The position numbers and the translations under genes were made by a program. 40,138 nucleotides of DNA from a virus, in IMG/VR virus record IMGVR_UViG_3300005577_000057, positions 1 through 40,138 of that record; one strand, 5' to 3'. Positions 1-40,138 of this stretch are shown here, in pieces (within the stretch, counting starts at the first letter, position 1; each line of letters begins with the position of its first letter). A model generated the notes under the pieces. The model worked only from the letters and a program-made list of their open reading frames with translations. It ran no database searches and was not told the DNA's origin.

Positions 1-927
1 CGCTGCGCCGCCGAAGACGAGCCGGCTCTCCAGGCCGACCGAGAACGAGCCGCCGACGTCCGACGAGTCAGACCGCACGTCGTACATGAAGGCCACTGGC
101 GAGAAGCCAGCGTTCACCGCTCCGATGCCCGCCGCGCGCGCGCCGGAGAAGCGCCGGCCGCTGTACCAGGTGTTGCCGTCGGCGCCTTCGTTGAAGCCGA
201 TGAGCCCGCTGTTGTCCGCGAAGGAGAGCGCGCCGTTGCCCGCGTCAGTCGAGAAGCGCGCCCCGGGTTCGAGTCGGATGACCGATCCGGCCTTGCCGAA
301 CGTGCCCGGCGACATTTTGTAGGTGCCGGCGGGGAATGATGCCTGCTTGAGGGCGGCGACGGCCAGCGTCACGGCGGCGTTGTTGAGCGTGGCGTTGTTG
401 CCGACAGCGCCGGAGTCGCGCGCGTCGAGGAGGCGCATCGCCAGCGCGATGGCGTCGGTCGCCGTGGTCAGCGCCGGATTGCCCAGGGCGTCGAAGCCCA
501 GCCCGCGCAGCGCGCGCGCCGCGGCGGAGGGCAGGTTCGAGTCGATGACCTCGTCGGCAGGAAAGCGCAGGGCATTGCGACCGAGCACCTCGTTGTCCTG
601 CGAGGCCATCCAGAGGCGGTCGAAATCGCGGTTGACCGTCTTCGCCTGGAAGTCGCCGGCATACTGGTAGTCGGTGGCGCGCCGCAGCATGACCGAGCGG
701 CGCATCGAGACCTTGGCGCCGGCCACCGGTGGCGCGGTGAAGGTCACGGTGCCGCCGCCGACCTGGTCCAGGCCGGTGACGGTGTAGTCGGCGCCGTAGG
801 TCTTGAGCGCGCCGTCGACGCTGACGCGCAGGTCCTCGGTCGCGTAGAGCAGGAAGGCGAAGGTGAAGGCGGTGGTGGTGCCGTTGCCGATGGCGGTGGA
901 AATGGGGTCTTGGATCGGAACGGACAT
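1..927 (-). CDS. Tail fibre protein, N-terminal part (runs off left edge)
   Basis: The gene starts at the ATG at 927, which overlaps the terminase stop as TGATG, and 309 codons are read before the window edge with no stop. The N-terminus (MSVPIQDPISTAIGNGTTTA) and the following 130 residues have the character of the T7 gp17 N-terminal tail-attachment domain, including the region around LWMASQDNEVLGR. This domain anchors the fibre to the tail. The rest is Gly/Ala/Ser-rich, as expected of a trimeric fibre shaft. The gene lies after the terminase genes. The C-terminal half appears to be the open frame entering from the right edge (39351-40138). Counting the terminal CG once gives a fibre of about 570 residues. 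The family call is by eye and fairly secure; receptor specificity is unknown. Confidence 0.8.
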   Translation of the reverse strand, partial: MSVPIQDPISTAIGNGTTTAFTFAFLLYATEDLRVSVDGALKTYGADYTVTGLDQVGGGTVTFTAPPVAGAKVSMRRSVMLRRATDYQYAGDFQAKTVNRDFDRLWMASQDNEVLGRNALRFPADEVIDSNLPSAAARALRGLGFDALGNPALTTATDAIALAMRLLDARDSGAVGNNATLNNAAVTLAVAALKQASFPAGTYKMSPGTFGKAGSVIRLEPGARFSTDAGNGALSFADNSGLIGFNEGADGNTWYSGRRFSGARAAGIGAVNAGFSPVAFMYDVRSDSSDVGGSFSVGLESRLVFGGAA

Positions 928-2522
928 CAGCTCTCCAGCGTGACTTCATGGATGCCGGAATCCGGCCGCCACATTGCACCGCTGGGGAGTGTCTGAATCC
1001 CGTCTGCCTGCACCTGGCCGTTGCCGATGCGCACTGGCGTCGCTCGAATGGCGCGCGCGCCCGAGTCGAGGTAGTCGTCCGGCTGCTCCTTCACCGCCGG
1101 GTTCCAGTCCTTCATCTGGTCCCACATCGGGCCGTCGAGCACGTCCACGTGCGCCCACAGCAGGCCGATCGACATGGGCGCCTCGAAGGCGTCGAGGATG
1201 TCCTTGTTCTTGTTCGTCGAGGCGTGGTCCTCCACCACCCCGCAGACGATGCCGCGCAGGTGCTTGCGCAGGATCGGCGGCACGAACCCGCCCGGGCCGT
1301 TGGTCTCGACCGTGACGCTCGGGATGTGGTACTCGAGCACCAGCTTGCGCACGGCCTTGCACTGCTCGTCGATGTCACCGGTCACGCCGACGGCGAACTG
1401 CCAGTAGAGCCGGCCAGCGGCGTCCGTGAGCACCAGCGAGATGGCCGAGGCGTCGCTCGTGACCTTGCCGAGCGAGCAGTCCCACCGGCATTTCGCGCCG
1501 ACGATGCGCACATTGCCCAGCATCAGCACCGCCTCGCGGTTGGCCGTCGTGAGCACCGGCTTCATGTCGTAGGGGATGATCTTCTCGGGGTCGAGGCGGA
1601 CCTCGCCGATCGGCTTGCTGTGCAGCTGGTACTGACTCGACCACTCGTTGTGCGTGCGGGTCTCTCGGCGGCGCTTTTCCAGCTCCGCGCGATTGAAGCG
1701 CTCCGGCCAAGCACAGCCGGCGTAGCAGTCGATGAAGCCCTCGGGAATCCCGGCGAACGTCACGCGCCCGGCGGCGACCTGGTAGTCAACCTCCGGCACC
1801 AAGAGGCGGGCGCCTTTGCCGATGCCGATGAAGATGTACTCGGGATCGAAGCCCACCTCGACCATCCGGCCCGGCTTCTCGACGAAGTGCTCGCGCTCGA
1901 ACATGCGGATGGTCAGGCAGTCCGCGCCGAGGCGCTCCTGCTCGTCATACAGGCTGTCATGGGTGTGGGGGGTTCCCACATATAGCTTCCGGCCGCCGGG
2001 AACCAGAATGTGCGTCTGCTCACCCAGGCGGTAGCGCAGTTTCTCGCGGGCTTCGGGGTTGCCGATGTTGCGCGGCACCTCGACGTCATCGTTTTGGCAC
2101 TCGTCCGCGCGGGCCGACGTCACGTTGGACATGATGCCGCGCGCGTACATGCTGGCGTTTCGCGCGTCGTCGGCGCCATTCACCCACCACTGCTCCACCG
2201 GCCCAGGCTTGTCGGGCAACATGCCCTGTGTCAACGGGTGCTTGCGCAAGATGTTCTGCACGTTGCGACTCGACTTGTACGCCGTCGGGTCCGCCTCCGA
2301 CTGCAGCAGAATGCGGTACGTCGGATCGTCGTAGTAGCGCCAGGCGTTGTAGAGGTCGAGCAGCGAGGATTTGCCGAAACCTCGGAAGCACCGAAGCACG
2401 GCCAGCAATCCGCGATGCTGCAGCCAGTGAACGGCGCGCCAATGGACATCCGGCACGTCCCACTGACGCACCACCGCCCACATGGCAAAGAACGTGGGGA
2501 AGTCGACTTTAGCGGTTGCCAA
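927..2522 (-). CDS. Terminase large subunit (T7 gp19-like)
   Basis: This is the packaging motor ATPase and nuclease, 531 aa, that drives DNA into the prohead through the connector. The Walker A-like motif FRGFGKSS lies at residues 46-53, close to the FRGIGKS of T7 gp19. A Walker B-like DDVEVP lies at 145-150 but is preceded by ECQN rather than the usual hydrophobic residues, which is slightly odd. A KLYVGTPHTHDSLY segment matches the T7 region VIYLGTPQTEMTLY. The nuclease half carries WDCS, VETNGPGG and DDYLDS, in the order of the T7 RNase H-like motifs (VIDPS, VVYESN, DDRLDA). It overlaps the small terminase gene by 14 bp and touches the tail-fibre start. The 34-bp element copy A lies inside its 3' end. 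Confidence 0.93.
   Translation of the reverse strand: MATAKVDFPTFFAMWAVVRQWDVPDVHWRAVHWLQHRGLLAVLRCFRGFGKSSLLDLYNAWRYYDDPTYRILLQSEADPTAYKSSRNVQNILRKHPLTQGMLPDKPGPVEQWWVNGADDARNASMYARGIMSNVTSARADECQNDDVEVPRNIGNPEAREKLRYRLGEQTHILVPGGRKLYVGTPHTHDSLYDEQERLGADCLTIRMFEREHFVEKPGRMVEVGFDPEYIFIGIGKGARLLVPEVDYQVAAGRVTFAGIPEGFIDCYAGCAWPERFNRAELEKRRRETRTHNEWSSQYQLHSKPIGEVRLDPEKIIPYDMKPVLTTANREAVLMLGNVRIVGAKCRWDCSLGKVTSDASAISLVLTDAAGRLYWQFAVGVTGDIDEQCKAVRKLVLEYHIPSVTVETNGPGGFVPPILRKHLRGIVCGVVEDHASTNKNKDILDAFEAPMSIGLLWAHVDVLDGPMWDQMKDWNPAVKEQPDDYLDSGARAIRATPVRIGNGQVQADGIQTLPSGAMWRPDSGIHEVTLES
972..1005 (-). repeat. 34-bp late element, copy A (inside terL 3' end)
   Basis: On the minus strand this begins AGACGGGATTCAGACAC, followed by TCCCC and a diverged tail. 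It shares the first 17 bases exactly with copy C at 21201-21234, and all but one of them with copy B at 15061-15094. It ends 44 bp before the tail-fibre ATG. It is embedded in coding sequence (terminase residues about 506-517), so the conservation is not explained by the protein. It may be a late promoter-like or RNA-level control site. Confidence 0.6.
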
Positions 2523-14942: not shown

Positions 14943-15060
14943 TGAGTCACTCCTGAAGTTTTGAACTGGTGTTCGCCGTTCAGGTGATCCCTCGCGGGGC
15001 CTGCGTCGCTGGCTAAGGCGGGCTTCTGGTGATCCCGCATGCCAGGCGGGGCCGTGGCAG

Positions 15061-15094
15061 CAATGTCCGTTTTGGGGGTGCCTGAATCCCGTCT
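15061..15094 (-). repeat. 34-bp late element, copy B (before capsid)
   Basis: On the minus strand this begins AGACGGGATTCAGGCACCCC and ends in GGACATTG. It matches copy C at the same spacing over 34 bases (21201-21234) with a few changes in the middle, and the left part of copy A. It starts 12 bases downstream of the scaffold terminator's T-run and lies 118 bp before the capsid ATG, which is where a new promoter would be needed. Confidence 0.7.
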
Positions 15095-15106
15095 TTCTGC
15101 AGGCGC

Positions 15107-15130
15107 AAAAAAGCCCGCGCGAAGCGGGCT
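15107..15130 (-). terminator. Intrinsic terminator after the scaffold gene
   Basis: On the minus strand a 7-bp GC-rich stem AGCCCGC / GCGGGCT with a five-base TTCGC loop is followed by six T (15107-15112). It lies 35 bp after the scaffold stop and just upstream of the 34-bp element, so capsid transcription is likely reset here. Confidence 0.85.
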
Positions 15131-15165
15131 AAGGTCGATCGCTCGACCAAGGAGACCCCACGAGA

Positions 15166-15999
15166 TCAGCGTGTCGGGGTGCCCTTCGCGGCCAGCTGGG
15201 CGGCGCGGGCGGAAACTGCGGCGTGCTTGGGGTCGCGCGGGTTGCTGTAGGCGGCCCAGTTCTCGGCGATGTACTCCTGGTGCGTCTGCACGCCAACGCC
15301 AGGCGAGCCGTTGGCAGCGGCCGGCGTGGCGTCCTCGCGCATCTCCGGCGCCAGCGCGGCGAACAGGCGGATCGCGACCGGGTTGTTGCCGATGGCCTTC
15401 TCGACCTCGTCGAACGGGATGCCAGCGGACTCGGCGACCTTGCTCACCACGCGGAAGCTCTCCCGGATGTTGGTGTCGTAGTCGTCCTTCCACGTGTCCT
15501 TCAGCGCGGCCACGGCGCCGTCGACGGTCTCGGCTTGGCCCGCTTGCACCAGCTGCGGCGCGAGCGTGGCGTACTCGCTCATGACGTTCTCGTACTGGGA
15601 CTGCGACAGGCCCCAGCTGTGCGCCTTGGCCTGGAATGCCTTGGCGGTGCTCGGGTCGATCGGCAGGGCCTTGAAGGCGTCGGACTCGGGCAGCTTGTAC
15701 TCGTCGGGCGTCTTCGGGCGGATGTCACCCACGCCGAGGCGCTTCTCCAGCGCGCTGCGGTGCTCGTCGACCTTGCGCATGGTGGCGGCCAGGTCGAGCG
15801 CGCCGTCGGCGCCGGCGACGCGGTACTTCTCGGGGATGCTCTGCGGCGTCCACTCCTGGCCGGCGGCGAGCGCCGAGGGGTTCTTCGCGTCGGCGGGCGC
15901 GAGCGTGCCAGGCGGCGTGGTCTTGTCACCCGGCAGCGGTGCGCCAGGGTCGGGCGTGCCGACGGGTGCTTCGGGGGCGGTGGTGGTCTCGTCGCTCAT
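15166..15999 (-). CDS. Capsid assembly scaffold protein
   Basis: 277 aa from the ATG at 15999, which overlaps the previous stop as ATGA. The N-terminal 50 residues are Pro/Thr/Ala-rich and disordered (MSDETTTAPEAPVGTPDPGA), followed by acidic and helical regions (PDEYKLPESDAFKALPIDPS). The protein is hydrophilic, has no enzyme motif and sits directly before the capsid gene, as T7 gp9 does. Scaffolds chaperone prohead assembly and then leave. The C-terminus (AAQLAAKGTPTR) is basic, as expected for capsid contact. Confidence 0.85.
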   Translation of the reverse strand: MSDETTTAPEAPVGTPDPGAPLPGDKTTPPGTLAPADAKNPSALAAGQEWTPQSIPEKYRVAGADGALDLAATMRKVDEHRSALEKRLGVGDIRPKTPDEYKLPESDAFKALPIDPSTAKAFQAKAHSWGLSQSQYENVMSEYATLAPQLVQAGQAETVDGAVAALKDTWKDDYDTNIRESFRVVSKVAESAGIPFDEVEKAIGNNPVAIRLFAALAPEMREDATPAAANGSPGVGVQTHQEYIAENWAAYSNPRDPKHAAVSARAAQLAAKGTPTR

Positions 16000-16244
16000 G
16001 GTTGCTCCTGGGGTTGGTCGTCGATGTTGTTGGCGCGGTTGATCTGCCGGATGATGTGCTGCACCACCTCGGCCTGGCCCATGCGGTGGTAGGTCTTCAG
16101 GACGGCGTCGATGCCGCCCTCGGTCACAGCGGCCTTCGAGAACATGCGCACGAGGTCCTCGAGGATGGCGGCGCCGCGCTGGTCGACTTCGAAGATCTGG
16201 CGGTAGAGCTCGGCGCGGTTCTCGGGGGTGAGGCGGATGGTCAT
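15996..16244 (-). CDS. Small head-region protein, 82 aa, unknown
   Basis: 82 aa, MTIRLTPENRAELYRQIFEV at the start, helical and charged, ending in a Gln/Pro-rich tail. The start at 16244 lies 3 bp after the tailspike stop, and its own stop overlaps the scaffold start. Position between connector and scaffold suggests a morphogenesis role, but no family is recognised. Confidence 0.65.
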   Translation of the reverse strand: MTIRLTPENRAELYRQIFEVDQRGAAILEDLVRMFSKAAVTEGGIDAVLKTYHRMGQAEVVQHIIRQINRANNIDDQPQEQP

Positions 16245-16247
16245 GGC

Positions 16248-18098
16248 TTACCAGGTGGCGAGGGCTGTGCGCTGCCATGTGTTGGTGGCAACACAAACGT
16301 AGATGAAGCCGGACACGACGCGAATCTCGCCAGCGACGCCGGCGGCCGTGGCGCTAGCAGGTGCCGTACCTGGCGTGAGCGTCAGCGCAGTGGTGAAAAC
16401 GCCCGACCATCTCAGGTTGGCTTGGCCGAGCGACTTGGTGTTGTCCGCCCCCGGCCGGAAAGAGCTGGCGATGAACGAATAAGAGAAGGTCGGCACGCCA
16501 CCCACCGCCAGGTCGATGTGCAAGCCTCCTGCCTCGGCGCCCACGCCATTCCCGTAGATCGCTGGGCGGACCTTGGCGTAGACCGTCTTGGTCGCGGCTG
16601 CGTTGTTCGCCGACAGATCGATGCCGCCAATGGAGGTGCCGCCGCCAGCCGAAGATGGCGCGTAGGTCTCGATGGAAGAATCGGTGTTCGCGGGCGAGTA
16701 GAACTGCGCCCGGGTCATTCGGATTCCGTCCGGGTGGTCTGCCTGGAATAGGCGTGTAGGCACACCATCCAGGATGCCCAGGAATCCTGTTTGCGTTCCG
16801 CCTTTTTCGATCAGACCATTTACCGTCGAACAGCCAGTTACTGCATGAACACTAGATGCACCGGTTGTCTGGTAATCATTGTGATCCAACTCAATGTTCG
16901 TGCCATTGGTGAATGCAATGCAAGGTGTATTCAAGTTGGCAATGATGAAATTCACCGACACTTTTACATTAAAGCATTGCCCGACGCCTGTGCCATCAGA
17001 GTATCTGACCCCTGTGAACCGAATTGATTCGGTCGTGGCGTATTCAATTTCATTTCCAACGAGGTTCACTGCTCTTGCGCCAGCAAGCCACATGGCTCTT
17101 TCGCCACCATTGAAGTTGTTGTGAATGAAATTGTGGCTCACACCGCCATCATCAATGATGTTGCATTTATTTGCGTTGAACTGAGTCCGAGAAACGGTGA
17201 TTTGATTTGTAAAGCCATTCGCTGCAAGTGGGGTGTACGTTGAGCCATTAACCAGCCAAATTCCGCCCTCTCGATTCTGAGCGTATTCGCCCCGATCAAT
17301 TGTGGCAATCTCGGTTTGATCGAAGATCGTGCCATATTTAAAGCCAGAAACCCTCACGTTCTCCAAGTCAACATACGTGCCGCCAACGTCAACGAAACCG
17401 CCATCGGTGTTAGCGGCATGGGCATTCAATACGGCACAATTCCTGAGGCCCGAGTAAGCGCCGGTGCTGGAATTGATTGGGTTGCTAGACTTGAAGCCAG
17501 CGCCAGAATTGGTGAACTTGAAAACCGTTGCGCGCTTTCCTTTCCCTCGAAGCCTAACTTTATTCTTCCAGGCGATTGTCCTGGTGCACAAGAACTCTCC
17601 TCTCGGCCCTTCTAGCTCGGTGCCATCTGGCAGCAGGCTACAGAAGGAAATAGCGCGTTCGATGTCATCAGACGCGTCGTATGTACTTGTTCGATTGAGA
17701 ATGGCCGATCGCTCTGCTTTCGGAATGAAGTCAAACAACCGGACCGTCTCGGAGAACACCTCCCTCACATCACGCGGGTAGGTGCCAGTCCCTGAGAGCT
17801 GATATCCAAAACCGGCCGACGCATCGGGCAAAGCCAGTTCTGCCCTGGACGCCAGCCCTGACACATCCGTGGTTGACGGCGTGAACTGCGCGGATGCCCC
17901 TACGCCCTGGAGCGTCAACGTGACACCATCATCCGATCGGATGACTTGAGTGCCAATCGGGAAATCGCCGGAGCCCAGGGCGATACGCACGTTGATGGCG
18001 TCGATCTGGGCGCTCGTCAGCCGTGGCAGATCCTTGCGCTCATCGACGACGTCGGGCTCGACGACCCAGCCCACGCCGGGAACAAGTACAGCGGTCAC
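16248..18098 (-). CDS. Tailspike / receptor-binding protein with beta-helix-like body
   Basis: 616 aa from the GTG at 18098, which overlaps the previous stop as GTGA; the longer open frame upstream reads through another gene. The N-terminal 70 residues (PGVGWVVEPDVVDERKDLPR, then SAQIDAINVRIALGSGDFPI) probably anchor it. Residues about 115-520 contain the Asn/Gly/Thr-rich repeating pattern of a right-handed beta-helix spike (LENVRVSGFKYGTIF, QITVSRTQFNANKCNIIDDG, IELDHNDYQTT). The C-terminus ends in GFIYVCVATNTWQRTALATW, a common spike terminal module. It probably binds or degrades a surface polysaccharide. The stretch 16800-17700 is clearly more A+T-rich than its neighbours, suggesting recent acquisition. 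A spike gene between connector and scaffold is out of place for a T7-type map. Confidence 0.82.
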   Translation of the reverse strand: MTAVLVPGVGWVVEPDVVDERKDLPRLTSAQIDAINVRIALGSGDFPIGTQVIRSDDGVTLTLQGVGASAQFTPSTTDVSGLASRAELALPDASAGFGYQLSGTGTYPRDVREVFSETVRLFDFIPKAERSAILNRTSTYDASDDIERAISFCSLLPDGTELEGPRGEFLCTRTIAWKNKVRLRGKGKRATVFKFTNSGAGFKSSNPINSSTGAYSGLRNCAVLNAHAANTDGGFVDVGGTYVDLENVRVSGFKYGTIFDQTEIATIDRGEYAQNREGGIWLVNGSTYTPLAANGFTNQITVSRTQFNANKCNIIDDGGVSHNFIHNNFNGGERAMWLAGARAVNLVGNEIEYATTESIRFTGVRYSDGTGVGQCFNVKVSVNFIIANLNTPCIAFTNGTNIELDHNDYQTTGASSVHAVTGCSTVNGLIEKGGTQTGFLGILDGVPTRLFQADHPDGIRMTRAQFYSPANTDSSIETYAPSSAGGGTSIGGIDLSANNAAATKTVYAKVRPAIYGNGVGAEAGGLHIDLAVGGVPTFSYSFIASSFRPGADNTKSLGQANLRWSGVFTTALTLTPGTAPASATAAGVAGEIRVVSGFIYVCVATNTWQRTALATW

Positions 18099-19000
18099 AG
18101 GGTCACTCCGGTCTTGCTGGCCATCCAGCGCTCGCACAACGACAGTTCGCTGGCAGAAAGAAGGCGGCCGATGACGATCAGTCCATACAGGCGGCCGGTG
18201 AATGGGTTGCTCGTGGCGTTGCGCCGAAAGACGTTCAGCGTGGCGCTGAGAAACTTGGCCGAACCGCTGGCGGTGGCCTGGCTGCTGGTCTGCACACCAT
18301 TGACGCGCAGCTTTGCGCTTGGATCGGCGGTGCCATCGAACACCCCCGTGACGACCCGAGAGGCTGGAGAGACCTGACCTGCGGCATTGACCGCCGATTT
18401 GATTGCGCCGGTGTTGATGGTGGCACCGAAGTTGTCGAAGCCCGGGCTCGTCGGTCCATTGAGCGCGAAGGTTCCCACGTTGCCGAAAGAGGCGCTGTGC
18501 TCGCAGATCACTGCCGTCGATGCGTCGCTCTCCTTGCGCACGCCAGCGATGACCGTGGCCTGAGACGTGGCGCTCAAGTCCAGCGGAGCGAGTGATTGCC
18601 AAAAGTCATCGACGCCATCGGCCTGCGCCCAGTGCAGCACACCGTCGGTGCGGTACATAGGCATGCTCGCCGCCACAGATGTGCCAAGCCCATTGCTTGA
18701 GCCGGCGCGGTCATTGATCCTGGCGAACGGCTGGCCGTCTGCAGTCACTGCCGTCGTACCGGCGAAGTTCTGGAATCGGGCCGCGGATAGGCTCAGGTCG
18801 GCCCAGAACTTCGCGTCGGACAAGGCTGAGATGAAGTTGGACAGCTGCACGTCCAACGTCTCGGGTTTAGGGATCGGATCTACGATGTAGCCGGAGCCCG
18901 TGAGCGTGGCCGTATAGCCAGGCGCCGGTAGCCCGCTCTTGGGGTTGATGATCGGGTCGACCAGCCACCCCGCGCCCGTGAGCGATGCGTTGTAGCTCAT
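18095..19000 (-). CDS. Lectin/LamG-like adhesin of the virion
   Basis: 301 aa overlapping the connector stop (ATGA) and the tailspike start (GTGA). The N-terminus has two related repeats, TGAGWLVDPIINPKSGLPAP and TGSGYIVDPIPKPE. Residues about 60-300 look like a concanavalin/LamG jelly roll: QADGVDDFWQSLAPLDLSAT, then beta strands such as ATVIAGVRKE and RVVTGVFDGTADPSAKLRVN, then FTGRLYGLIVIGRLLSASEL and the ERWMASKTGVTL ending typical of LamG-like phage proteins. It probably binds a glycan and works with the adjacent spike. Confidence 0.75.
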   Translation of the reverse strand: MSYNASLTGAGWLVDPIINPKSGLPAPGYTATLTGSGYIVDPIPKPETLDVQLSNFISALSDAKFWADLSLSAARFQNFAGTTAVTADGQPFARINDRAGSSNGLGTSVAASMPMYRTDGVLHWAQADGVDDFWQSLAPLDLSATSQATVIAGVRKESDASTAVICEHSASFGNVGTFALNGPTSPGFDNFGATINTGAIKSAVNAAGQVSPASRVVTGVFDGTADPSAKLRVNGVQTSSQATASGSAKFLSATLNVFRRNATSNPFTGRLYGLIVIGRLLSASELSLCERWMASKTGVTL

Positions 19001-20634
19001 CCTTGCTTCCCTGCGGCCTCGATGGCCACCTCGCCGGCCTTCTGCTGCATCTCCTGCTGCTGGGCTGCCTGCTGAGCCTGCTGGCGGTTGCGGTTGTCCA
19101 TCTCGCGTTTCTCCAGCAGCTGATCCGGGCCGCGCAGGAGCTTGGCGGGCACACCCAGGGCCAGGCCCTTGGCATACATCGCGGCGTCGAGGTTCATGCC
19201 GTCGAGCAGCGTCATGTCGCCCGTGCTGGCAGCGGCGGCGAACAGGCCGGCGGCGTACTGGTCGATCGCCGTGACCTCCTCGAGCTTCTGGCTGCGCGCG
19301 AGGGGCGAGATGTACTTGACCGTGTAGTCGCCATCGAGCAGGCCCTCGGGCACCTCACCCAGCGTGGCAGTCAGCGCGCCGCCGCGGAATGCGATGTTGA
19401 AGCAGCGCTCGACCAGCACCTGCAGGAACTCCGACTGCAGCCGGCCGAGAATGGGCGCCATCAGCTGGCGGATCTGGCTCATGTTCTGGCTGATCTCGGT
19501 GGCGCTGCGCACCGGGCCGCCCACGGGCGTGAGCATGTCGCTCATCAGCGTCTTGCGGATGGACTGGCGCAGCTGGTCGGCCTTGGAGAAGCTGACGTTG
19601 AAGTCCGCGCCGGTCTCTAGCGGGGCCATGCTGTCGAGCGTGGCCATCATGACGATCTTGCGCGGGCCGATACGCACGGTGCGCGGGTTGAGCACGCCGT
19701 CGTCGACCGCCTTCCACATGCCGCCGATCGAGATGTCCAGGCTCATCAGCTCCATGCGGAGGATGTCGTTGAGCGTCTTGACGTCGGGCAGCACGTTCGA
19801 GCCGATGCCGGTGGCATAGGGCGTGCCGGGGATCAGGCGCCAGCGCGGCACGGCGCAGGGGAACTCGTGATAGCCCGACTCGCGCAGGATGTGCTTCTTC
19901 GCGCGCTCCTCGTGCACCGACTGCCACGGCAGGTTCTTCGCGAGCTTGCCCGAGGCGCCGCGCCGTGGCTCGATGGTCCACAGCAGGTCGACCTTCTCCG
20001 TGAGCTTGCCGTCGTCGAACTTCTTGCGCGTCTCCTCGCTCACCTTGTCGTGGCCGTACTCAGCAACGAGCTGCTCGACGGTCATCGAGAAGTTGCGGTA
20101 GATGGTGTCGACCCGGCCGGCGGGCCGTGAGCTGGCGACGTAGCACTGAAACAGGGGCCACTGCTCGAAGTTGTAGCCGCCGATGGGCCGGCCCTGCTCA
20201 TCCTTGGCCTCGTCGATGTAGAGCACGAACCAGCCAGCGGGGATCAGGTCGCTGTAGCACTCGCCCGAGACCGCACCGAAGCCGGCGCTGTGGATGTGTT
20301 CAAAGAGGAACTGGGCGGCGCCGTCCATCCACTGGGTGGAGAGCTCATCCTCCTGGCCGGCATCCAGGCCGAACCAGCGGGAGTTCTCCGGCGTCATCCA
20401 CGAGGAAATGTTGCTCTTGAGCACCTCGGCCGAGTCGATCGCGGTCGAGTCGTACAGGCGTGCGCGCTGTGCGGCGGAGGTGCCGGCGTTGGAGTCGGTG
20501 GAGTCGTTGAACCAGCCGATCGCACGCTCGGGCGCCAGGTACTCGAACACCTCCCTCCAGATGTGGTCGGACTGCTCCCGCTGACTGCGCAGCTGCGTGA
20601 AGCGGCGCTCGATCTTGTCGGCCAGTTCGCTCAT
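18997..20634 (-). CDS. Head-tail connector (portal), T7 gp8-like
   Basis: 545 aa, close to T7 gp8 (536 aa). The pattern of the podovirus connector family is clear: an N-terminal helix with RSQREQSDHIWREVFEYLAP, the segment LYDSTAIDSAEVLKSNISSWMTP, then YATGIGSNVLPDVKTLNDI and a Gln-rich C-terminal helix (RNRQQAQQAAQQQEMQQKAG). Twelve copies form the portal vertex through which DNA enters and leaves. The ATG at 20634 directly abuts the upstream TAG stop. The stop overlaps the lectin-like gene. Confidence 0.92.
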   Translation of the reverse strand: MSELADKIERRFTQLRSQREQSDHIWREVFEYLAPERAIGWFNDSTDSNAGTSAAQRARLYDSTAIDSAEVLKSNISSWMTPENSRWFGLDAGQEDELSTQWMDGAAQFLFEHIHSAGFGAVSGECYSDLIPAGWFVLYIDEAKDEQGRPIGGYNFEQWPLFQCYVASSRPAGRVDTIYRNFSMTVEQLVAEYGHDKVSEETRKKFDDGKLTEKVDLLWTIEPRRGASGKLAKNLPWQSVHEERAKKHILRESGYHEFPCAVPRWRLIPGTPYATGIGSNVLPDVKTLNDILRMELMSLDISIGGMWKAVDDGVLNPRTVRIGPRKIVMMATLDSMAPLETGADFNVSFSKADQLRQSIRKTLMSDMLTPVGGPVRSATEISQNMSQIRQLMAPILGRLQSEFLQVLVERCFNIAFRGGALTATLGEVPEGLLDGDYTVKYISPLARSQKLEEVTAIDQYAAGLFAAAASTGDMTLLDGMNLDAAMYAKGLALGVPAKLLRGPDQLLEKREMDNRNRQQAQQAAQQQEMQQKAGEVAIEAAGKQG

Positions 20635-20838
20635 CTATTGCCCGAGGGTGGTCTTGCCGTAGCTCAGCGCGGACGAGGTGCCCGCGCCCGTGGAGAGCGC
20701 CGACTTGTTGCGGTTGGTGCGGCGCACGGCAGCGTCGGCGTTGGCCTTGGACGCAGCTTCAGCGGCTGCCTCGTCGGCGGCCACCTGGGGATCGACGCGC
20801 GCCGGTGCGACGGGCGTAGGCTTGGCGCCGCCGCACAT
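20635..20838 (-). CDS. Small MCGG-type head protein, 67 aa
   Basis: 67 aa beginning MCGGAKPTPVAPARVDPQVA and ending SALSYGKTTLGQ. A short Cys-containing, Pro-rich start and a Thr-Gly-Leu-rich end recur in small phage proteins located next to connector genes; their role in head-tail assembly is not known to me. The stop abuts the connector ATG, so translation is probably coupled. Confidence 0.65.
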   Translation of the reverse strand: MCGGAKPTPVAPARVDPQVAADEAAAEAASKANADAAVRRTNRNKSALSTGAGTSSALSYGKTTLGQ

Positions 20839-20840
20839 GA

Positions 20841-21176
20841 TCAGAGCTTCGCGGCGCGGTCGGTCGGGTGCACGGCCGGCACGAACCAGCCTTCATCGGT
20901 CAGCACCGGGATCGACGGGTTCTGCTTCTGCACCGCCTTCATGGTGGGCAGCTCGACAGCCTCGGCCATGCTCGCGGTCTGGTTCTTGCCCAGCTGGGCG
21001 ACGAGGGAGCGCAGCTCGGCCATCTCGCGATCTTGGCGGGCGACCTTGTCTTCGAGCGACTCGTCGGCGGAGGCGGCCTGGGGACGCAGTGCGGAAGCCA
21101 CGTCGTCGCGCAGGCTCGGCTCGTCGGTGTCGCGGGGATTGGTGCCGGGAACGGCGGGGGATGCGGTGCGGGACAT
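20841..21176 (-). CDS. First late gene, 111 aa, unknown head-region protein
   Basis: 111 aa from the ATG at 21176 with an AGGAG ribosome site; the open frame extends upstream but without another supported start. It has a disordered N-terminus (MSRTASPAVPGTNPRDTDEP), a short coiled-coil candidate (SLEDKVARQDREMAELRSLV) and a more ordered C-terminus with DEGWFVPAVHP. It is the first gene downstream of the 34-bp element copy C, so it opens the late region. No family recognised. Confidence 0.65.
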   Translation of the reverse strand: MSRTASPAVPGTNPRDTDEPSLRDDVASALRPQAASADESLEDKVARQDREMAELRSLVAQLGKNQTASMAEAVELPTMKAVQKQNPSIPVLTDEGWFVPAVHPTDRAAKL

Positions 21177-21200
21177 GGCAGCTCCTGGGAATGGACGCCG

Positions 21201-21234
21201 CAATGTCCCGCGTTGGGGTGTCTGAATCCCGTCT
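21201..21234 (-). repeat. 34-bp late element, copy C (head of late region)
   Basis: On the minus strand this begins AGACGGGATTCAGACACCCC and ends in GGGACATTG. It overlaps the last two bases of the stop codon of the winged-helix gene and ends 24 bp before the first late gene. It shares the first 13 bases exactly with copies A and B, and its 34-bp frame matches B at the same spacing. Confidence 0.7.
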
Positions 21235-21739: not shown

Positions 21740-22018
21740 TTATCGAAATTGTGCAGCCGACAGCGTGCGCCCCACTCGCATCGGCAGGTCGTCCCTCCGC
21801 TTTTGCTCCACCGAGCACCACAGGTCGATCAGGCTCTCCCCGATCTGGTGGCTCGGCTCCTGCCCCATGTTCTTCCAGTTGAGGATCGTGGTGCGCTTGC
21901 TGCCGATCGCTCCGGCAATGGCCGCGTGGGTGTAGCCGTGGCGCTCCAGCATAACGATCACGTGCCACCAGGAGACGGAGGGTCGCAAACGTGTGCGCGC
22001 GCGCGAGGGGATCAGCAT
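21740..22018 (-). CDS. Helix-turn-helix protein, 92 aa
   Basis: 92 aa from the ATG at 22018, overlapping the previous gene by 7 bp. The central part reads as a helix-turn-helix: WWHVIVMLERHGYTHAAIAG then AIGSKRTTILNWKNMGQEPS. This resembles small phage regulators that pair a recognition helix with a conserved WK. It is near the end of the early operon, so a regulatory or replication-linked role is likely. No specific family is assigned. Confidence 0.65.
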   Translation of the reverse strand: MLIPSRARTRLRPSVSWWHVIVMLERHGYTHAAIAGAIGSKRTTILNWKNMGQEPSHQIGESLIDLWCSVEQKRRDDLPMRVGRTLSAAQFR

Positions 22019-22881: not shown

Positions 22882-23168
22882 GAAAGCACCCCCACGGCTT
22901 GCAGGGCGCTGGGCGTGGAGTCGACCACGTAGAGGGGCATGCCCGCCCACTCCTTGTGGAACAGCTCCTGGTGCGGTGTCAGCTTGCGGGCGGATGGCAC
23001 CTTGGCGCCGTCCTTGACCTCCAGCAGCACGAGGCGGCCCTTCCAGCCGCACAGCAGGTCGGGGACACCGCTGCCCACCGGTGCGAGGCTCAGCACCAGC
23101 ACACCCATGGTGCGGAGGTCAGCGACGATCTGCGCCTGGTTTGCATCCAGCTTCGCTGCCCTCCTCAC
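22878..23168 (-). CDS. VRR-NUC / Holliday-junction-resolvase-fold nuclease
   Basis: 96 aa from the GTG at 23168, preferred over a GTG at 23183 because it overlaps the stop of the small lipoprotein-like gene (GTGA) and has a GGGGGAG ribosome site. The fold signature is GVPDLLCGWKGRLVLLEVKD, giving Asp and Glu-x-Lys of a PD-(D/E)xK active site, followed by LTPHQELFHKEWAG. Such phage VRR-NUC proteins cut branched or flap DNA. Clustered with ninB and the Ref-like gene. Confidence 0.82.
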   Translation of the reverse strand: MRRAAKLDANQAQIVADLRTMGVLVLSLAPVGSGVPDLLCGWKGRLVLLEVKDGAKVPSARKLTPHQELFHKEWAGMPLYVVDSTPSALQAVGVLS

Positions 23169-28431: not shown

Positions 28432-29045
28432 GCACGCCGCTGTACCACTCCACGCCGCGCACGCCGGTGGCCGCCTCCCCGCAGGTAGCTCCGGCCGACG
28501 CTGTTGCGGAAGCCTTGGACGCCCTTGAGCGTCGGAATTGGGGCACTGCACAAGGGCTGGTCGCCGCAAAGCTGGTCGCCGAACTGCGCGCGACTCTCGC
28601 CATCGGCCCGGTAGTCCCGGCCCTAAAACCTGGAACTCCTGGCCCGTGGCGAGTTTCGGCCGATGGCCTCCGCATCTGCACCGACTATCGCGACGAAAAC
28701 GGCAACGACCGGCCGGATAGCTACACGCGCGGAGGACATCCGAAAGTCATCGCAACACTGTCAGATGCGTCGTGGAGATCGTTTGAAGATCGGGTGGCGG
28801 ACGCCAAGGCCATCGCGGCTCTGGGTGGCGCCCCAGCAGCTCCGACACCGGCACAGCCGAGCGAGGATGCACGAGACGCGGCGCGGTATCGTCGCCTGCG
28901 CGCTCAGAACTGGCATGACTCCGACTTGTTCGTCGTCTCCGGCGGCAAGGCAAGCGTGCGGCTGGGCATCGACTGCCCATCCGGCAGCCGGCTGGATGCG
29001 GCTGTCGATGCCCTGCTATCCAAGCCGGAAGGGAGCGCATCGTGA
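28428..29045 (+). CDS. Modular early protein with VAP linker, 205 aa
   Basis: 205 aa from the ATG at 28428. It begins with a linker (MSTPLYHSTPRTPVAASPQV) and has a helical module VAEALDALERRNWGTAQGLV and AAKLVAELRATLA. A close relative of that module occurs in the 550-aa protein at 31132 (DAFERQERGTVQAHVAAKLV). A second module begins at TPGPWRVSADGLRICTDYRD and a third at DARDAARYRRLRAQNWHDSD (the latter of a type frequent in phage small proteins). Probably a mosaic of interchangeable modules. Function unknown. Confidence 0.62.
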   Translation: MSTPLYHSTPRTPVAASPQVAPADAVAEALDALERRNWGTAQGLVAAKLVAELRATLAIGPVVPALKPGTPGPWRVSADGLRICTDYRDENGNDRPDSYTRGGHPKVIATLSDASWRSFEDRVADAKAIAALGGAPAAPTPAQPSEDARDAARYRRLRAQNWHDSDLFVVSGGKASVRLGIDCPSGSRLDAAVDALLSKPEGSAS

Positions 29046-31132: not shown

Positions 31133-32784
31133 TGACTGCCAATCTCACAAACACAGCCCCCACCTCCCCCGCCAGTGGAGCCCTGCCGGCCGACTCGCAT
31201 TTCCTGACGTGGCTGGCGGACCGGCTCGTGCATGTCTACGGCGAGAACCCCAACGTAGATTTCGTGCACGCCACGCGACGCATTGCCGCCGCTCTCGCAT
31301 CCCGGGAGGCCAGCAGCGCCACGATTTCCAGCGAACAGGCCCGAATGCTGGTGGACGCGCTTGGCCGATGCATAGCGGCATCGGGCATCGTTCGCGATGA
31401 CATTGACGGCTTCAGTGGGCCACAACTCCTGATGTTTGCCGACGATCTGTGCGAGATGCTCAAGCAACGCGCCGGCCATGAAGCCAGCCCCGCCCTGCTA
31501 CCTCGCGAACAAGACTTCCACGATTGGTTCGCCGCGAACTACAACGGCGAGGTGGTCTTCAGCGACCCCCGGTGGCATTCCGAAAGCATTCTTCGCTGGG
31601 CACGTCGTGCTCTTGCCTCCCCGCAGGTAGCTCCAGCCCTGACGGACGAGCAGATGCGCGAGGCGTTGTGGTTTGCGATGGATATGACCAACGTCATCGG
31701 CCGGACGCGCGCCAACTTGATCGAGTACTTTTTGCACAAGGTCAACAAAGACCGGCTCGCCACCCCTGTACAGGTAGCTCCGCAGGGCAAACGCAAACCG
31801 TGGGACACGCTCACGGCACTGGAGAAAGCCCCGAAGTTGATCGAGGAGCTGGAGTCCGAGTCCGAGCGCATCACCCGATGCAGCAACAGCCCGTTGGATG
31901 GCCTGCTTCAATCTGCGGCCGATGTGTTGCGCGAACTGACGGCCACGGGTCCCGCCCCGGTAGCTCCGCCAAACTTGAGTAGCCCGCTGGCTGGCGATTG
32001 CCGCACCGTAGGCGGCTTCCTGAGCGATGTCATGACAGCGGCCGGATTGGTCGAGCATGGACGTCAATGCAAGCCTCTGGCCGAGCGGATTTCGGTCGCT
32101 TGTTCTGACCTCAGGGCTCGGATTTTTCAAGGCTCCGCCCCGGTAGCTCCGACCGACGAGCGAGAAGTCCTGCGCGCCGAGCAAGCGGCTGCCGTGATGC
32201 CTCAGATCGGGCCGTTGTTGGATGCGTTTGAGGGCTTGAACAATGACACCCTCTGCCTTCTCCGCGACGAGGCGCCGGGCTTGCTAAACGCCTTGAGGGC
32301 AATCAATCGCTCGATGGAAGACTGCGCCCCGGTAGCTCCGACACCGGCCCCTGGCGCCGTGCTGGATGTCATCGATGCCTTTGAGCGGCAGGAGCGCGGC
32401 ACCGTGCAGGCACACGTCGCCGCCAAGCTGGTGGCCGAGCTGCGACGCGCTTTGTTGGTAGCTCCGACACCGGCACAGCCGAGCGAGTGGCAGCCGATCG
32501 AGACGGCGCCGCAGAGAGGCATCATCCTGCTCGGCTTGACCCCCAACGAGGAGCACGAGGACGGCTACGTGAGCCCGGGCTACTGGATGGAGTCTGACGA
32601 CGATGGCCCGGACAACATGGGGCACGACGCTGGCTTCGTCGACGTTCACTTCGACTTCTTCACTTGCGCTCGATCGATTGGCAATCCTGCGTATCAGCAC
32701 AAGGGCCTCCAGCCGACGCACTGGCAGCCCCTGCCGCCGCCTCCCCTGCCATCCGAGCCGGAAGGAGAGAGCGGCCATGACTGA
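31132..32784 (+). CDS. Mosaic DUF551 protein, 550 aa
   Basis: 550 aa from the ATG at 31132. It is built of short modules joined by VAP linkers (residues encoded at 31626, 31773, 31959, 32142, 32331 and 32457). One module (DAFERQERGTVQAHVAAKLV) is close to one in the protein at 28428. Others include LIEELESESERITRCSNSPL and DEREVLRAEQAAAVMPQIGP. The C-terminal 90 residues are DUF551: EWQPIETAPQRGIILLGLTP and then THWQPLPPPP. DUF551 proteins are common in phage early regions, and their function is unknown. The repeated linker DNA makes module exchange plausible. Confidence 0.7.
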   Translation: MTANLTNTAPTSPASGALPADSHFLTWLADRLVHVYGENPNVDFVHATRRIAAALASREASSATISSEQARMLVDALGRCIAASGIVRDDIDGFSGPQLLMFADDLCEMLKQRAGHEASPALLPREQDFHDWFAANYNGEVVFSDPRWHSESILRWARRALASPQVAPALTDEQMREALWFAMDMTNVIGRTRANLIEYFLHKVNKDRLATPVQVAPQGKRKPWDTLTALEKAPKLIEELESESERITRCSNSPLDGLLQSAADVLRELTATGPAPVAPPNLSSPLAGDCRTVGGFLSDVMTAAGLVEHGRQCKPLAERISVACSDLRARIFQGSAPVAPTDEREVLRAEQAAAVMPQIGPLLDAFEGLNNDTLCLLRDEAPGLLNALRAINRSMEDCAPVAPTPAPGAVLDVIDAFERQERGTVQAHVAAKLVAELRRALLVAPTPAQPSEWQPIETAPQRGIILLGLTPNEEHEDGYVSPGYWMESDDDGPDNMGHDAGFVDVHFDFFTCARSIGNPAYQHKGLQPTHWQPLPPPPLPSEPEGESGHD

Positions 32785-34005: not shown

Positions 34006-34053
34006 TATTTCGTGCCATGATCCCCCACGCATTTACGCACCGTGGGGAAGAGG

Positions 34054-35010
34054 ATGGCATCGATCACGAGGTATGGGGACAGGTGGCGCGCGCAAGTTGC
34101 CATCAAGGGGGTGAGGAAGTCGGCGGTCTGGGGCACTAAGCGAGAGGCCATCGCCTGGGCCAACCGCATCGAGAACGAGATCGAAGACGGCCTGAAGGGT
34201 GGCAAAACCTTCCTGCAGGCGGTCGACGAGTACAAGCTCCGCGTCAGCGTGAACAAGCGCAACCCGATATGGGAGGCCCGGCGGCTGGCCGCATTCACTG
34301 AGTACTTCGGGCCCGGCCGGCTGTTGGCCAAGATCACGAGCGACGACATCGGGAGGTGGAGGGACTTCCGGCTCAAGGGTGGGCAGCTCAACGGCAGGGA
34401 ACACAAGCCTGTCGTCGGCGCGACCGTCCAGCGTGAGTCGAACCTGCTGAGCAACCTCTTCACGGTGGCGCGCAAGGAGTGGAAGTGGATCCAGACTCAC
34501 CCGTTCGAGGGCGTGCGCATGCCCGAACAGGCCGATGCGCGGCACCAGGTGTGGCGCTGGCAGCAGATGAAGCGGGTGCTGCGCTCCGACCGCGCGGGGA
34601 AGACTGGGGAGGTGGTGAAGGCGTTTCACATCGCCCTGCACACGGCACTGAGGCTGTCCGAGATCATCTCGGGCCAGTACGACCCGAGGCTGAGGGTCAT
34701 CGTGCTCAACCGCAGCAAAGGCGACGGGAACAAGCGCGTGCTCGTGCCGGTGACTCGCCGCGCCGCCAAGCTGTTCCCCGTGGCCTTCACCGTAGGCGCC
34801 AACGAGGCGAGCACCCTGTTCAGCGATCTACGTCAGCAGTTGCTAATCGAGGACTTGACGTTCCACGACACGCGCGCCACGGCGCTGACGCTGCTGTCCA
34901 GGCGCATGGACGTCATGACCCTCGCGCGGATCAGCCGGCACAAGGACCTGAACATCCTGCTGAACACTTACTACAGAGAAAGACCCGAGGACATCTCGGC
35001 CCGGATATAA
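34054..35010 (+). CDS. int: Tyrosine integrase
   Basis: 318 aa from the ATG at 34054 (GGGGAAG seven bases upstream); a GTG four codons earlier (34042) is possible. An N-terminal arm-binding-like domain (SITRYGDRWRAQVAIKGVRK), a core-binding domain (about 50-160) and a catalytic domain follow. The catalytic set is visible: Arg200 in TALRLSE, Lys222 in SKGDG, His271 and Arg274 in HDTR, His296 in SRHKD, and a Tyr at 306 or 307 in NTYYRE. It recombines attP with a host tRNA attB. Here it follows attP on the same strand. In the prophage it would sit directly behind the host tRNA gene. Confidence 0.92.
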   Translation: MASITRYGDRWRAQVAIKGVRKSAVWGTKREAIAWANRIENEIEDGLKGGKTFLQAVDEYKLRVSVNKRNPIWEARRLAAFTEYFGPGRLLAKITSDDIGRWRDFRLKGGQLNGREHKPVVGATVQRESNLLSNLFTVARKEWKWIQTHPFEGVRMPEQADARHQVWRWQQMKRVLRSDRAGKTGEVVKAFHIALHTALRLSEIISGQYDPRLRVIVLNRSKGDGNKRVLVPVTRRAAKLFPVAFTVGANEASTLFSDLRQQLLIEDLTFHDTRATALTLLSRRMDVMTLARISRHKDLNILLNTYYRERPEDISARI

Positions 35011-36659: not shown

Positions 36660-39191
36660 TCAATTGATGTTCGCGACGCCCAGCGAGTGGACGCGGCCGG
36701 GCACATTGACCTTGCCGGCGTACTCGAGGTCGCCATCGGGCTTGCACGGGTTGGCCTGGGTGCAGGTGCCACTTCGGCCCCCGTCCGTCCACCAGACGAT
36801 CGGTGCGTACCAGAACGAGTGCAGCGCGCGGCCGGTGTAGTCGCCGACGGCCAGCAGATAGCTCTCGGCGCCGTGGTTGTCGACGTCCTCAATCGTGATC
36901 GGGTCGGTGACCGTCGGGCGCAGGCTGATCGACTTGAAGACCTTCGCGCTGCGCATGGCCGCGTCGAACTGCCAGAGTTTGGCCTCGCCGGTCTCACGCG
37001 ACAGGGTCCACCAGTAGCGGTCCTCCGGGCCCTCCGAGCCGTAGAGCAGGCTGTTGCGGTTGCCCTGAGGGCCGTTCATGCCCTTCTCCTTGAGGTAGGT
37101 GATCGCCGTGACGTTGCCGCCGACGTCGAGCTCGGCCACCTGGGCGATGTCGCTGGGCGCGCCGACGGCGACGGCCTTCTGGTCGAGGTAGCGGGAGCCG
37201 AGATCGAACACGCGGGCCTTGCCATCCAGGCCGCCAATCAGCGCGCGCGCCGCGCCGGTGCGGCTCAGCGCCAGGGACGTCACCTCGGACGGCAGGTCGA
37301 TCGTCTTGACCACCACCGGCTTCTGAGCAGGAGCCACGTCGAAGGTGTACGGCCACTGGGTCGCCGCCGGGCCGCGCGAGGCGATCAGGGCTTGGAAGCC
37401 GGCGTCGTTCTTCGTGAGGTACTGCTCGCGGTAGTACATGAACAGCGGGCGCAGGTCGATGACGGCGGCGCGCTTCTCGCTCTTGCTTCCCACCACCAGC
37501 ACGCCGGTGCGCGCGATGGCTGTCGTCCAGTTGCCGTCGTAGAAGCGCTTGCGGTTCGCCTCGGTCAGGATGTTCTGCGTCCAGAAGCTGTCGATGACCT
37601 GGTAGCCCTCGCGGTCCTTGGACACGCCGGTGGTGACGGCGATGCTGGTAGGCGCGGTCACACCGGCCGGGAGGTCGATCTCGCCGATCACCTTGCCGCC
37701 CGAGTAGTTGCCCAGGCCCGGCAGGCCGGGATATTCCTGGGTGTGGTTACCCCAGTTGCCATACCACTTCGAAAGCGGCTCGTTGGCGCACCACTGGCAG
37801 GCGTCGGACATGGCCACGACGATGACCTTGCCCTTCACGTTGACCGTGTCCCAGGCCGTCACGAAGACAAACTCGCCGCTGTTGCTGGCGGTCAGGCCGG
37901 TGACCTGCAGGCCGGCGCGCGCGACGTTGACCTTGAAGAAGTTGTGCGCGGTGTTGCTGCCCACGCCGAACATCCAGCCATCGGACATCAGCACCAGGCT
38001 GTTGGTGTTCCAACCGCCGCGGCCGTAGGCGCGCATGACCTGCACGACCTTGTCGTTCATCGGGATGGTGCCGATCGGCGAGCCGCCCTGGATGCCGGCT
38101 AGGCGCGCGGTGTTCTCGTCGGTGTCGCAGTTGTTGAGCGCCTTGTTGATGTAGGTCGTCCACGAGCACTCGGGCTTGATGGAGATCGTGCCGTGGCCGA
38201 CGTTGAGCACCTGGTAGCTGCCGACGCCCGGGTAGCGCTTCGCGGGGAAGCCGGCCGGGTTGGTGTCGGGCACGAAGCCGATGTTGGCGATGCTCGAGCT
38301 GTAGTCGCCAGGACGACCTTCGATCTTGCCGAGCTGGTACTCGCCACACCAGGACTGATCGCCCACGCCGCAGCCGCGACCGCCGGCGACGCCATCGGGG
38401 AAGATCTTGGGCGGGTTGTGCTGACCGGAGAGGTCGGCCATGCTGAAACTCGCGCGCGGGCCCGGGTAGCGCAGGGTCGGCGCAGCCAGCGAGGACGGCT
38501 TGCCGCGCAGGTACTCAACGCCGGCAGCCGTGCCCATGGTGGCGGCGACAGCGCGGTACTTCTCCGGCGTGTCGATCGCGCTGTTGACGGGCGTTGGATC
38601 GGGCTCGACCACCGGAGGCACCACCACCACGGGCGGCTCAACCGGCGGCGTGACGACGACCGGCGTGGTCACCGGCAGCGTGGTCGGGCCGTAGCAGGCC
38701 TTGAGGCTGCCGACGGCTGGGTCGATGTCCTGCCAGAGGTGCGAGCGGCACAGGTGCTTGCCGACGGGCAGCTCGGACACGCGGACCTTGCCGGGCACCC
38801 CGAAGGCCACACGCGTCGGCGTCGTCAAGACGAAGTCGATGTGCTCGGGCGCGAGCTTGGCGCCGAGGACCGGGTCGACCGGATCCACCATCGGCGGCAC
38901 GACGACCACCGGCACACCGCCGCCCTTGAGCGTGTACTTGCACTGCTTGCGCGGCGAGGCCATGACGCCGGGCAGGCCGAACGTCGACGGGTGGCAGACA
39001 TAGCTGCCGGCGTCGAGCGTGCGCTCGGTCCAGGCCGTGCCGGCGCCGTAGCTGACGACGGCCGGCGCGGCGAGCTTGAACTGCGTCGAGGCGGCGTTGG
39101 CCTCGTCGGCCAGCTTGGTGCCGGCGGGCGTAGCGGCATGGGCCAGGAGGGTAGCGGACAGCAGCGCGCCCGTGATGAAGATGCGTTTCAT
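36660..39191 (-). CDS. Large exported protein of unknown function, 843 aa
   Basis: 843 aa from the ATG at 39191, coupled to the small upstream gene by ATGA. A Sec signal peptide (MKRIFITGALLSATLLAHA) is clear, with cleavage after AHA. Residues about 50-90 and 130-170 look like two copies of a small domain with paired Cys (AGSYVCHPST...KQCKYTL and VGKHLCRSHL...LKACYGPT). A Pro/Val-rich linker (about 171-202) leads to a 640-residue beta-rich body with Trp- and Gly-rich segments (GRGGWNTNSLVLMSDGWMFG, AWDTVNVKGKVIVVAMSDAC, LALSRTGAARALIGGLDGKA), suggesting a propeller-like fold. It lies between tail fibre and lysis genes. Not a recognised family. It may be a surface or periplasmic effector or a virion-associated enzyme. 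Confidence 0.7.
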   Translation of the reverse strand: MKRIFITGALLSATLLAHAATPAGTKLADEANAASTQFKLAAPAVVSYGAGTAWTERTLDAGSYVCHPSTFGLPGVMASPRKQCKYTLKGGGVPVVVVPPMVDPVDPVLGAKLAPEHIDFVLTTPTRVAFGVPGKVRVSELPVGKHLCRSHLWQDIDPAVGSLKACYGPTTLPVTTPVVVTPPVEPPVVVVPPVVEPDPTPVNSAIDTPEKYRAVAATMGTAAGVEYLRGKPSSLAAPTLRYPGPRASFSMADLSGQHNPPKIFPDGVAGGRGCGVGDQSWCGEYQLGKIEGRPGDYSSSIANIGFVPDTNPAGFPAKRYPGVGSYQVLNVGHGTISIKPECSWTTYINKALNNCDTDENTARLAGIQGGSPIGTIPMNDKVVQVMRAYGRGGWNTNSLVLMSDGWMFGVGSNTAHNFFKVNVARAGLQVTGLTASNSGEFVFVTAWDTVNVKGKVIVVAMSDACQWCANEPLSKWYGNWGNHTQEYPGLPGLGNYSGGKVIGEIDLPAGVTAPTSIAVTTGVSKDREGYQVIDSFWTQNILTEANRKRFYDGNWTTAIARTGVLVVGSKSEKRAAVIDLRPLFMYYREQYLTKNDAGFQALIASRGPAATQWPYTFDVAPAQKPVVVKTIDLPSEVTSLALSRTGAARALIGGLDGKARVFDLGSRYLDQKAVAVGAPSDIAQVAELDVGGNVTAITYLKEKGMNGPQGNRNSLLYGSEGPEDRYWWTLSRETGEAKLWQFDAAMRSAKVFKSISLRPTVTDPITIEDVDNHGAESYLLAVGDYTGRALHSFWYAPIVWWTDGGRSGTCTQANPCKPDGDLEYAGKVNVPGRVHSLGVANIN

Positions 39192-39350: not shown

Positions 39351-40138
39351 TCAGGCAGTGGTGAGGAGTTTTCGGGGGACGCCGGCTGCGTCACAGACGG
39401 TGATGTAGCCGTTGGCCGCGGCGTCGCCGGAGGAGGTGAAGGCGCCGATTCCCACCAGGCCCGTGCCCCTGCCCTTGAGCAGCAGGTTGGCATTCACGGA
39501 TGGGCCGTTGGGCTCGATCGTTGCGAACCCGCCCACGTCGGCGAGGTAGAGGTGATCGTTGGTCAGCTTCATGTAGTCGCCCGACCGAAGCACCTCGTTC
39601 GTGATGTTGAAGCCGGCGAAGTCCAGGCCGCGCGCGATGGTCCGCTTCGCGCCGTCCATCCAGACGGTGTCCATCACCGAGCCGCCGGAGAAGATCGGGT
39701 CGGCGCCGTTCGCGTCTGTGAAGGTGAAGGCCGACGTCCAGCCGATGTGCCCGGTGTAGGTGCTGTCGAGCTCGCTCTGGCCGGCGATGCGAATGCCGCA
39801 GTCGATCTTCGTGCCGCGCGCCGCGTTCACCCCGATCACCGAGATACCCGAGCTGTACTTCAGGCCGACGGTGCCGGTGCCGATGAAGGTGTTGAACTCG
39901 GCGCCGGTGGCGTCGAACACGTACTGGGCCAAGGCGTTGACGTAGGTGGCGCCGGCCAGGCCGAAATACGCGCCCTTCTCGTTGCCTGCCGTGCCGCCGT
40001 CGCCGCCGGTGCTGCCGTAGCCTTGGGCGTAGGCACAGCCCTGCGTGCCGACATAGTTGCGGTTCAGGTTCAACAGGTTGGTCGCGCCGTCTTGGTGCTC
40101 GGCCGAGCCGTACATGCCGATGCGCCCGCCCTTGGCCG
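39351..40138 (-). CDS. Tail fibre protein, C-terminal part (enters from right edge)
   Basis: 261 codons up to the window edge, ending in TGA at 39351. The frame is open to the edge, with no upstream start needed. The body is Gly/Asn/Thr-rich with fibre-like repeats (NLLNLNRNYVGTQGCAYAQG, then FIGTGTVGLKYSSGISVIGV, then NANLLLKGRGTGLVGIGAFT) and ends in ITVCDAAGVPRKLLTTA, typical of a phage fibre tip. It is probably the continuation of the N-terminal part at 1-927. The two fragments join in frame if the final CG of the window and the first CG are the same bases. Confidence 0.78.
   Translation of the reverse strand, partial: AKGGRIGMYGSAEHQDGATNLLNLNRNYVGTQGCAYAQGYGSTGGDGGTAGNEKGAYFGLAGATYVNALAQYVFDATGAEFNTFIGTGTVGLKYSSGISVIGVNAARGTKIDCGIRIAGQSELDSTYTGHIGWTSAFTFTDANGADPIFSGGSVMDTVWMDGAKRTIARGLDFAGFNITNEVLRSGDYMKLTNDHLYLADVGGFATIEPNGPSVNANLLLKGRGTGLVGIGAFTSSGDAAANGYITVCDAAGVPRKLLTTA

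Follow-up and report, generated by a model that had tools for sequence, protein, structure and literature searches.

The window, a 40,138-base IMG/VR virus record, carries three copies of a repeated element that are probably late promoters. At these sites the host RNA polymerase would be recruited with the help of a phage activator bound to a dyad that takes the place of the -35 element, a reading drawn from comparative sequence analysis. The element had initially been described as a possible late promoter or activator site, and strand, position, spacing, the presence of a -10 hexamer, co-evolution and recurrence in other phages all argue for this description; an antitermination signal, the other function suggested for it, is not favoured.

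The window derives from a temperate podovirus, with an integrase gene at 34042-35010 and replication genes, and its late structural and packaging region is located on the minus strand. The features relevant to the analysis are the following.

927..2522, minus strand: terminase large subunit (phrog_38), the 3' end of which holds site A; the tail fibre starts at 925
973..978, minus strand: site A, predicted -10 hexamer TGCAAT, 12 nt after the box and identical in all close relatives
991..1004, minus strand: operator box of site A, GACGGGATTCAGAC, within the 3' end of the terminase gene; a box is conserved at this place in G001, G002, G004, G006, G007 and G024, in the variant of each genome
14085..14942, minus strand: major capsid protein (phrog_3437), behind putative promoter B
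14943..15055, minus strand: conserved capsid 5' leader downstream of putative promoter B, possibly a structured RNA
15062..15067, minus strand: site B, predicted -10 hexamer GACATT
15080..15093, minus strand: site B, operator box GACGGGATTCAGGC (putative capsid promoter)
15107..15130, minus strand: intrinsic-terminator-like hairpin and T-run closing the scaffold gene, read from the sequence, 13 bp upstream of box B
20841..21176, minus strand: first late gene, behind putative promoter C
21202..21207, minus strand: site C, predicted -10 hexamer GACATT
21220..21233, minus strand: site C, operator box GACGGGATTCAGAC (head of the late operon)
21740..22018, minus strand: 92-aa XRE-fold helix-turn-helix (HTH) protein encoded shortly before the late operon; candidate late activator

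On the minus strand, the tail-fibre frame is continued in frame from one end of the window to the other (1-925 and 39351-40138), pointing to a circular or circularly permuted record. Between the tail-fibre and lysis genes, the minus strand (36660-39191) encodes an 843-aa protein that has a signal-like N-terminus and no PHROG match, and is possibly the product of an accessory gene. A GC-rich motif (GCCTCCCCGCAGGTAGCTCCGGCC and similar sequences), unrelated to the late sites, is repeated at 28473-28496, 31615-31638 and 32131-32154 in the early plus-strand region.

Three copies of the element in the window

A pattern search of the window located AGACGGGATTCAGRCACYCC on the minus strand at 986-1005 (copy A), 15075-15094 (copy B) and 21215-21234 (copy C), in agreement with the three copies reported in the initial annotation. 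No fourth copy was found in the window at up to 3 mismatches, and a reversed-pattern control gave 0 matches. GGACATTG is common to B and C only, as had been claimed, and A features TGCAATGT at the same spacing. The placement described for the copies was also borne out. Copy A, which precedes the tail fibre, is contained in the 3' end of the terminase gene and lies 48-80 bp ahead of the tail-fibre start (925); copy B directly follows the scaffold-gene terminator and precedes the capsid start (14942); copy C, at the head of the late region, immediately precedes the first late gene (21176).

Within the window alone, the triple 13-mer repeat is only marginal: in dinucleotide shuffles of the window, a 13-mer occurring three times on one strand was found in 9/100 sequences, and a 17-mer occurring twice in 25/100. 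Scored with a matrix built exclusively from distant phages, C, A and B come 1st, 2nd and 4th among the ~80,000 window positions, with scores that fall within the range of shuffled-sequence maxima. Because the triple 13-mer is marginal when taken alone, the case rests on relatives, in which position, strand and spacing are conserved and all three sites of a genome share the box variant peculiar to that genome. A chance or mobile repeat devoid of a regulatory role would be compatible with the marginal figures obtained within the window, but is contradicted by these comparative data, including the concerted variation of the sites across many phages, and we regard it as exceedingly improbable. A host repeat was also considered and set aside.

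Bipartite organization of the sites

A, B and C are each composed, on the minus strand, of a 14-bp box, 12 nt and a -10-like hexamer. The box is an imperfect dyad, which reads GACGG-GATT-CAGRC in the window and GTCGG-GAWW-CCGAC in the commonest form of the family. The initial annotation had taken a 34-bp repeat as the unit; the functional element is more probably the 14-bp dyad together with the -10, and not the 34-bp repeat as such.

The hexamer follows a simple rule. NANNNT (A at position 2, T at position 6) is found 12-13 nt after the box in 41/46 distinct sites of the discovery set and, in an independent set that was not used to derive the rule, in 29/30 non-redundant sites, versus a mean of 1.4 at other offsets. 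These sites carry the A at -11 and the T at -7 of a sigma70 -10 element. The remaining 5/46 hexamers, all from terminase sites of the window's clade, read TGCAAT, in which the A at position 2 is broken. Hexamers observed include GACATT, GACAGT, GACGAT and CACACT; TAGAAT, TAAAGT or GATAAT are found in G011, and AACAAT in some relatives.

A TTGACA-like -35 is absent at ~17 bp, where the window reads GGGATT (2/6 matches). When the hexamer is placed at -12 to -7, the centre of the dyad falls at -31.5 or -32.5, over the usual -35. The earlier remark that the element shows no sigma-70 boxes thus holds for the -35 and not for the -10, as the hexamer located 12-13 nt after the box would act as a degenerate sigma70 -10. 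A sigma54 promoter was rejected by eye, GG-N10-GC not being present at -24/-12.

The two boxes are separated by a -35/-10-like spacing, and could in principle be read directly by a phage sigma factor or a single-subunit polymerase. This T7-like arrangement is very unlikely: the -10 fits the host-type NANNNT, and none of the long ORFs examined matches a polymerase or a sigma factor, any matches being to structural families. The sites resemble T7 late promoters in gene-order logic, being located before capsid and tail genes. In contrast to T7, however, the window features a host-type -10 and lacks the T7 consensus, and no gene for a single-subunit RNA polymerase was found among the 20 PHROGs-scanned proteins or the long ORFs. 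The T7-like reading was abandoned.

Concerted variation of the box

A search with the capsid protein identified 32 viral loci and four bacterial loci, one of which is a prophage in Variovorax paradoxus 110B. In the closest genomes, the bipartite site, with its spacing fixed, is found both before the capsid gene and at the head of the late operon. A third site, at the terminase 3' end of close relatives, corresponds to copy A. The box is present at the same three places in seven genomes (the window and six close relatives), and its letters are those of the genome in which it resides: GACGGGATTCAGRC in the window, GCGGGGATTCCAGC in G001 and G006, and GCCGGGATTCCGGC in G002, G004, G007 and G024. 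In L008, where a single site is visible, the box reads GCCAAGATTTTGGC. An exact 17-mer scan of viral contigs gave 0 matches because the letters of the box change from genome to genome.

Differences in the 14-bp box amount to 0.007/nt between sites of one genome, versus 0.122/nt at the same site between genomes. The spacer and the flanks show the opposite pattern. A box that varies in concert within a genome and diverges between genomes is the pattern left by sites that track a single trans-acting factor. At site A, the box varies inside a coding sequence, and the terminase peptide shifts along with it (DGIQT versus AGIPA).

The arms of the box covary (GCCGG/CCGGC, GCCAA/TTGGC, GTCAA/TTGCA), the central GA is fixed, and the orientation is constant relative to transcription. 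These properties would also suit a hairpin in the RNA (for example GCCGG-GATT-CCGGC) to which a phage protein binds, either in N/nut-type antitermination or in translational control. The same covariation, however, is expected of a dyad bound by a dimer, and in the window and in G001/G006 the arms are broken at identical pairs in all three copies. Moreover, a -10 is found at a fixed distance after the box, so that the box would not be part of its own transcript. Antitermination, in particular, is not favoured because the box at site B sits downstream of the terminator, an order visible also in L004 and other relatives, whereas a nut- or qut-like site should precede the terminator on which it acts. 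An RNA hairpin is, overall, an unlikely explanation.

Occurrence in distant phages and prophages

Promoter-like sites of the same organization are not restricted to close relatives. At equivalent places, phages that are more distant have GTCGGGAWWCCGAC or GTCAAGAATTTGCA. L012 features GTCGGGAAACCAGC and GTTGGGAAACCAGC at the expected places. G019, which at first appeared to lack the box, has three sites on the late strand (head, capsid and terminase/tail-fibre positions), where the box takes a new form, GTCAAGAA(T/A)TTGCA; the three places read GTCAAGAATTTGCA, GTCAAGAATTTGCA and GTCAAGAAATTGCA, and NANNNT is found 12-13 nt after each. In the prophage of E. coli B379, GTCGGGATTCCGAC occurs at the head and in the capsid leader, and again upstream of the terminase pair and at the 3' end of terL, always on the late strand.

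A profile of distant HTH proteins searched against viral contigs retrieved 208 relatives, of which 80 were kept. GTCGGGANNCCGAC was found at <=1 mismatch on the HTH strand in 64 of the 71 loci that had not been used previously, versus 0-1 sites in all in shuffles; minus-strand counts in the 71-locus test are largely the same dyads read backwards. Multiple co-oriented copies are found ahead of late blocks, and the arrangement recurs in dozens of related phages and prophages, among them prophages of E. coli.

In the 7.5-Mb V. paradoxus genome, a 32-mer pattern (<=3 mismatches) is found at four places in the prophage and at one elsewhere. In this prophage (L170, 1749-1780 and 2048-2079), ~300 nt are interposed between the HTH gene and the head site. 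A decayed copy of the site (GCCGAGATTCCGGC) is kept at the HTH stop, and the intact copy adjoins the late genes; L087 looks similar.

No recognisable box was found at the remote HTH relatives, which are found in Acinetobacter-type phages, Alcaligenes phage Piluca, BcepC6B and several Burkholderiales loci. An HTH-profile search of 399 Variovorax-order genomes revealed, besides V. paradoxus, only four remote homologs, none of which is associated with a box.

A candidate activator

Among the window genes that were searched against five close relatives, g21740, which encodes the HTH protein, was the sole early-region gene present in all five. The same gene is the only non-structural gene that the E. 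coli B379 prophage shares with all ten genomes tested (the window and nine others); the other non-structural genes of this prophage match only YeP5 or, weakly, G017. The HTH gene and the box co-occur in close and mid-distance relatives, and in most relatives the box is located at the HTH stop codon or at most a few hundred nt downstream.

The AlphaFold2 model of the HTH protein (mean pLDDT 82) features helices at residues 17-26, 31-38, 42-50 and 57-71, and the predicted fold is XRE/lambda-repressor-like, with a multi-helix HTH. Proteins of this fold frequently bind dyads. The top PDB matches obtained with Foldseek are P22 c2, C proteins and SinR, all at E > 0.03, and the list includes the restriction-modification C proteins C.EcoT38IS, C.BclI, C.Esp1396I and C.AhdI. 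Pfam analysis revealed a weak HTH_3 match, and Sigma70_r4 only at E = 0.21 in one HTH relative.

Residues in helix 3 vary with the operator group. They read TTIL in the window, RGTVE in G001/G006, and STILGW or SAVLGW in phages with GTCGG boxes; G004 has a divergent helix, yet carries the operator of G002. The link between recognition-helix residues and operator variants is only suggestive, because clade and operator coincide and the comparison is confounded with phylogeny.

The PHROG family matched by the HTH protein is labelled transcriptional repressor, and an operator over the -35 could block polymerase. The dyad might hence serve for repression, with the HTH protein or another phage repressor holding the late promoters off. 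This is improbable, since promoters without a -35 leave little to repress. Furthermore, the lytic early operon ends with the HTH gene, which is not found among the lysogeny genes, and the box is located after the HTH gene, not before it.

The capsid 5' leader

Conservation of the capsid 5' leader extends to distant phages, and the module GGCCCGG/CGGA(T/C)A(A/C)CC occurs in it twice. A hairpin pair in the leader shows changes on both sides in 7/17 sequences (alignment A5), and a search of Rfam with the leader gave no match. The region is possibly a new structured 5' UTR. A box-like sequence in the E. coli locus, GCCGGGAAACCGAC at 23044, falls within the second of the two leader modules and is unlikely to be a promoter.

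Proposed mechanism and comparison with known systems

In the activator-dependent mechanism that we propose, the HTH protein (21740-22018), the product of the last conserved gene before the late region and the likely dyad binder, would be synthesized early during lytic growth. Bound to the dyad, probably as a dimer, it would stand in for the missing -35 contact, the weak sigma70 -10 (NANNNT) being kept for the host polymerase. Three late units would be turned on in this way: the head and portal genes from C, the capsid gene onward from B, and the tail fibre and the genes behind it from A. We infer that transcripts start at the sites, that the HTH protein binds there and that binding results in activation rather than repression.

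In T4 middle promoters, a MotA box near -30 replaces the -35, and the sigma70 -10 is kept. The sites described here are similar in that an activator box would occupy the place of the -35 upstream of a retained -10. Unlike the T4 system, however, the box is a dyad of unrelated sequence, the candidate protein is XRE-like, and no AsiA-like partner was identified. Lambda CII and the C proteins of restriction-modification systems are small HTH proteins of XRE-like fold that act over the -35 region. Here, both the operator sequence and the role differ, as late genes would be controlled at several loci, and no significant fold or sequence match to these proteins was found (Foldseek E > 0.03). As with P2 Ogr and Mu C, a phage-encoded activator would serve several late promoters in a temperate phage; the operator form, the position and the protein fold of these two systems differ from those of the sites and protein in the window.

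No earlier description of the operator sequences or of matching late promoters was found in the open-access papers searched. We are inclined, if with some reserve, to view the sites and their cognate XRE-fold activators as an undescribed class of late promoters and regulators in temperate podoviruses of beta- and gamma-proteobacteria, a class marked by an activator that takes over the -35 contact and by operator arms that change in concert. The regulators of such phages are annotated as hypothetical proteins, and the mechanism would offer a late switch open to testing in a large group of temperate phages, among them the Yersinia phages YeP4-6 and prophages of E. coli. The signature formed by the operator and the -10 would make late transcription units predictable from sequence. 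The concerted arms (GCCGG, GCGGG, GACGG, GTCGG, GTCAA) would represent natural sets in which a regulator and several sites shift specificity together and, if the proposal is true, a natural series of promoter-regulator pairs with differing specificities.
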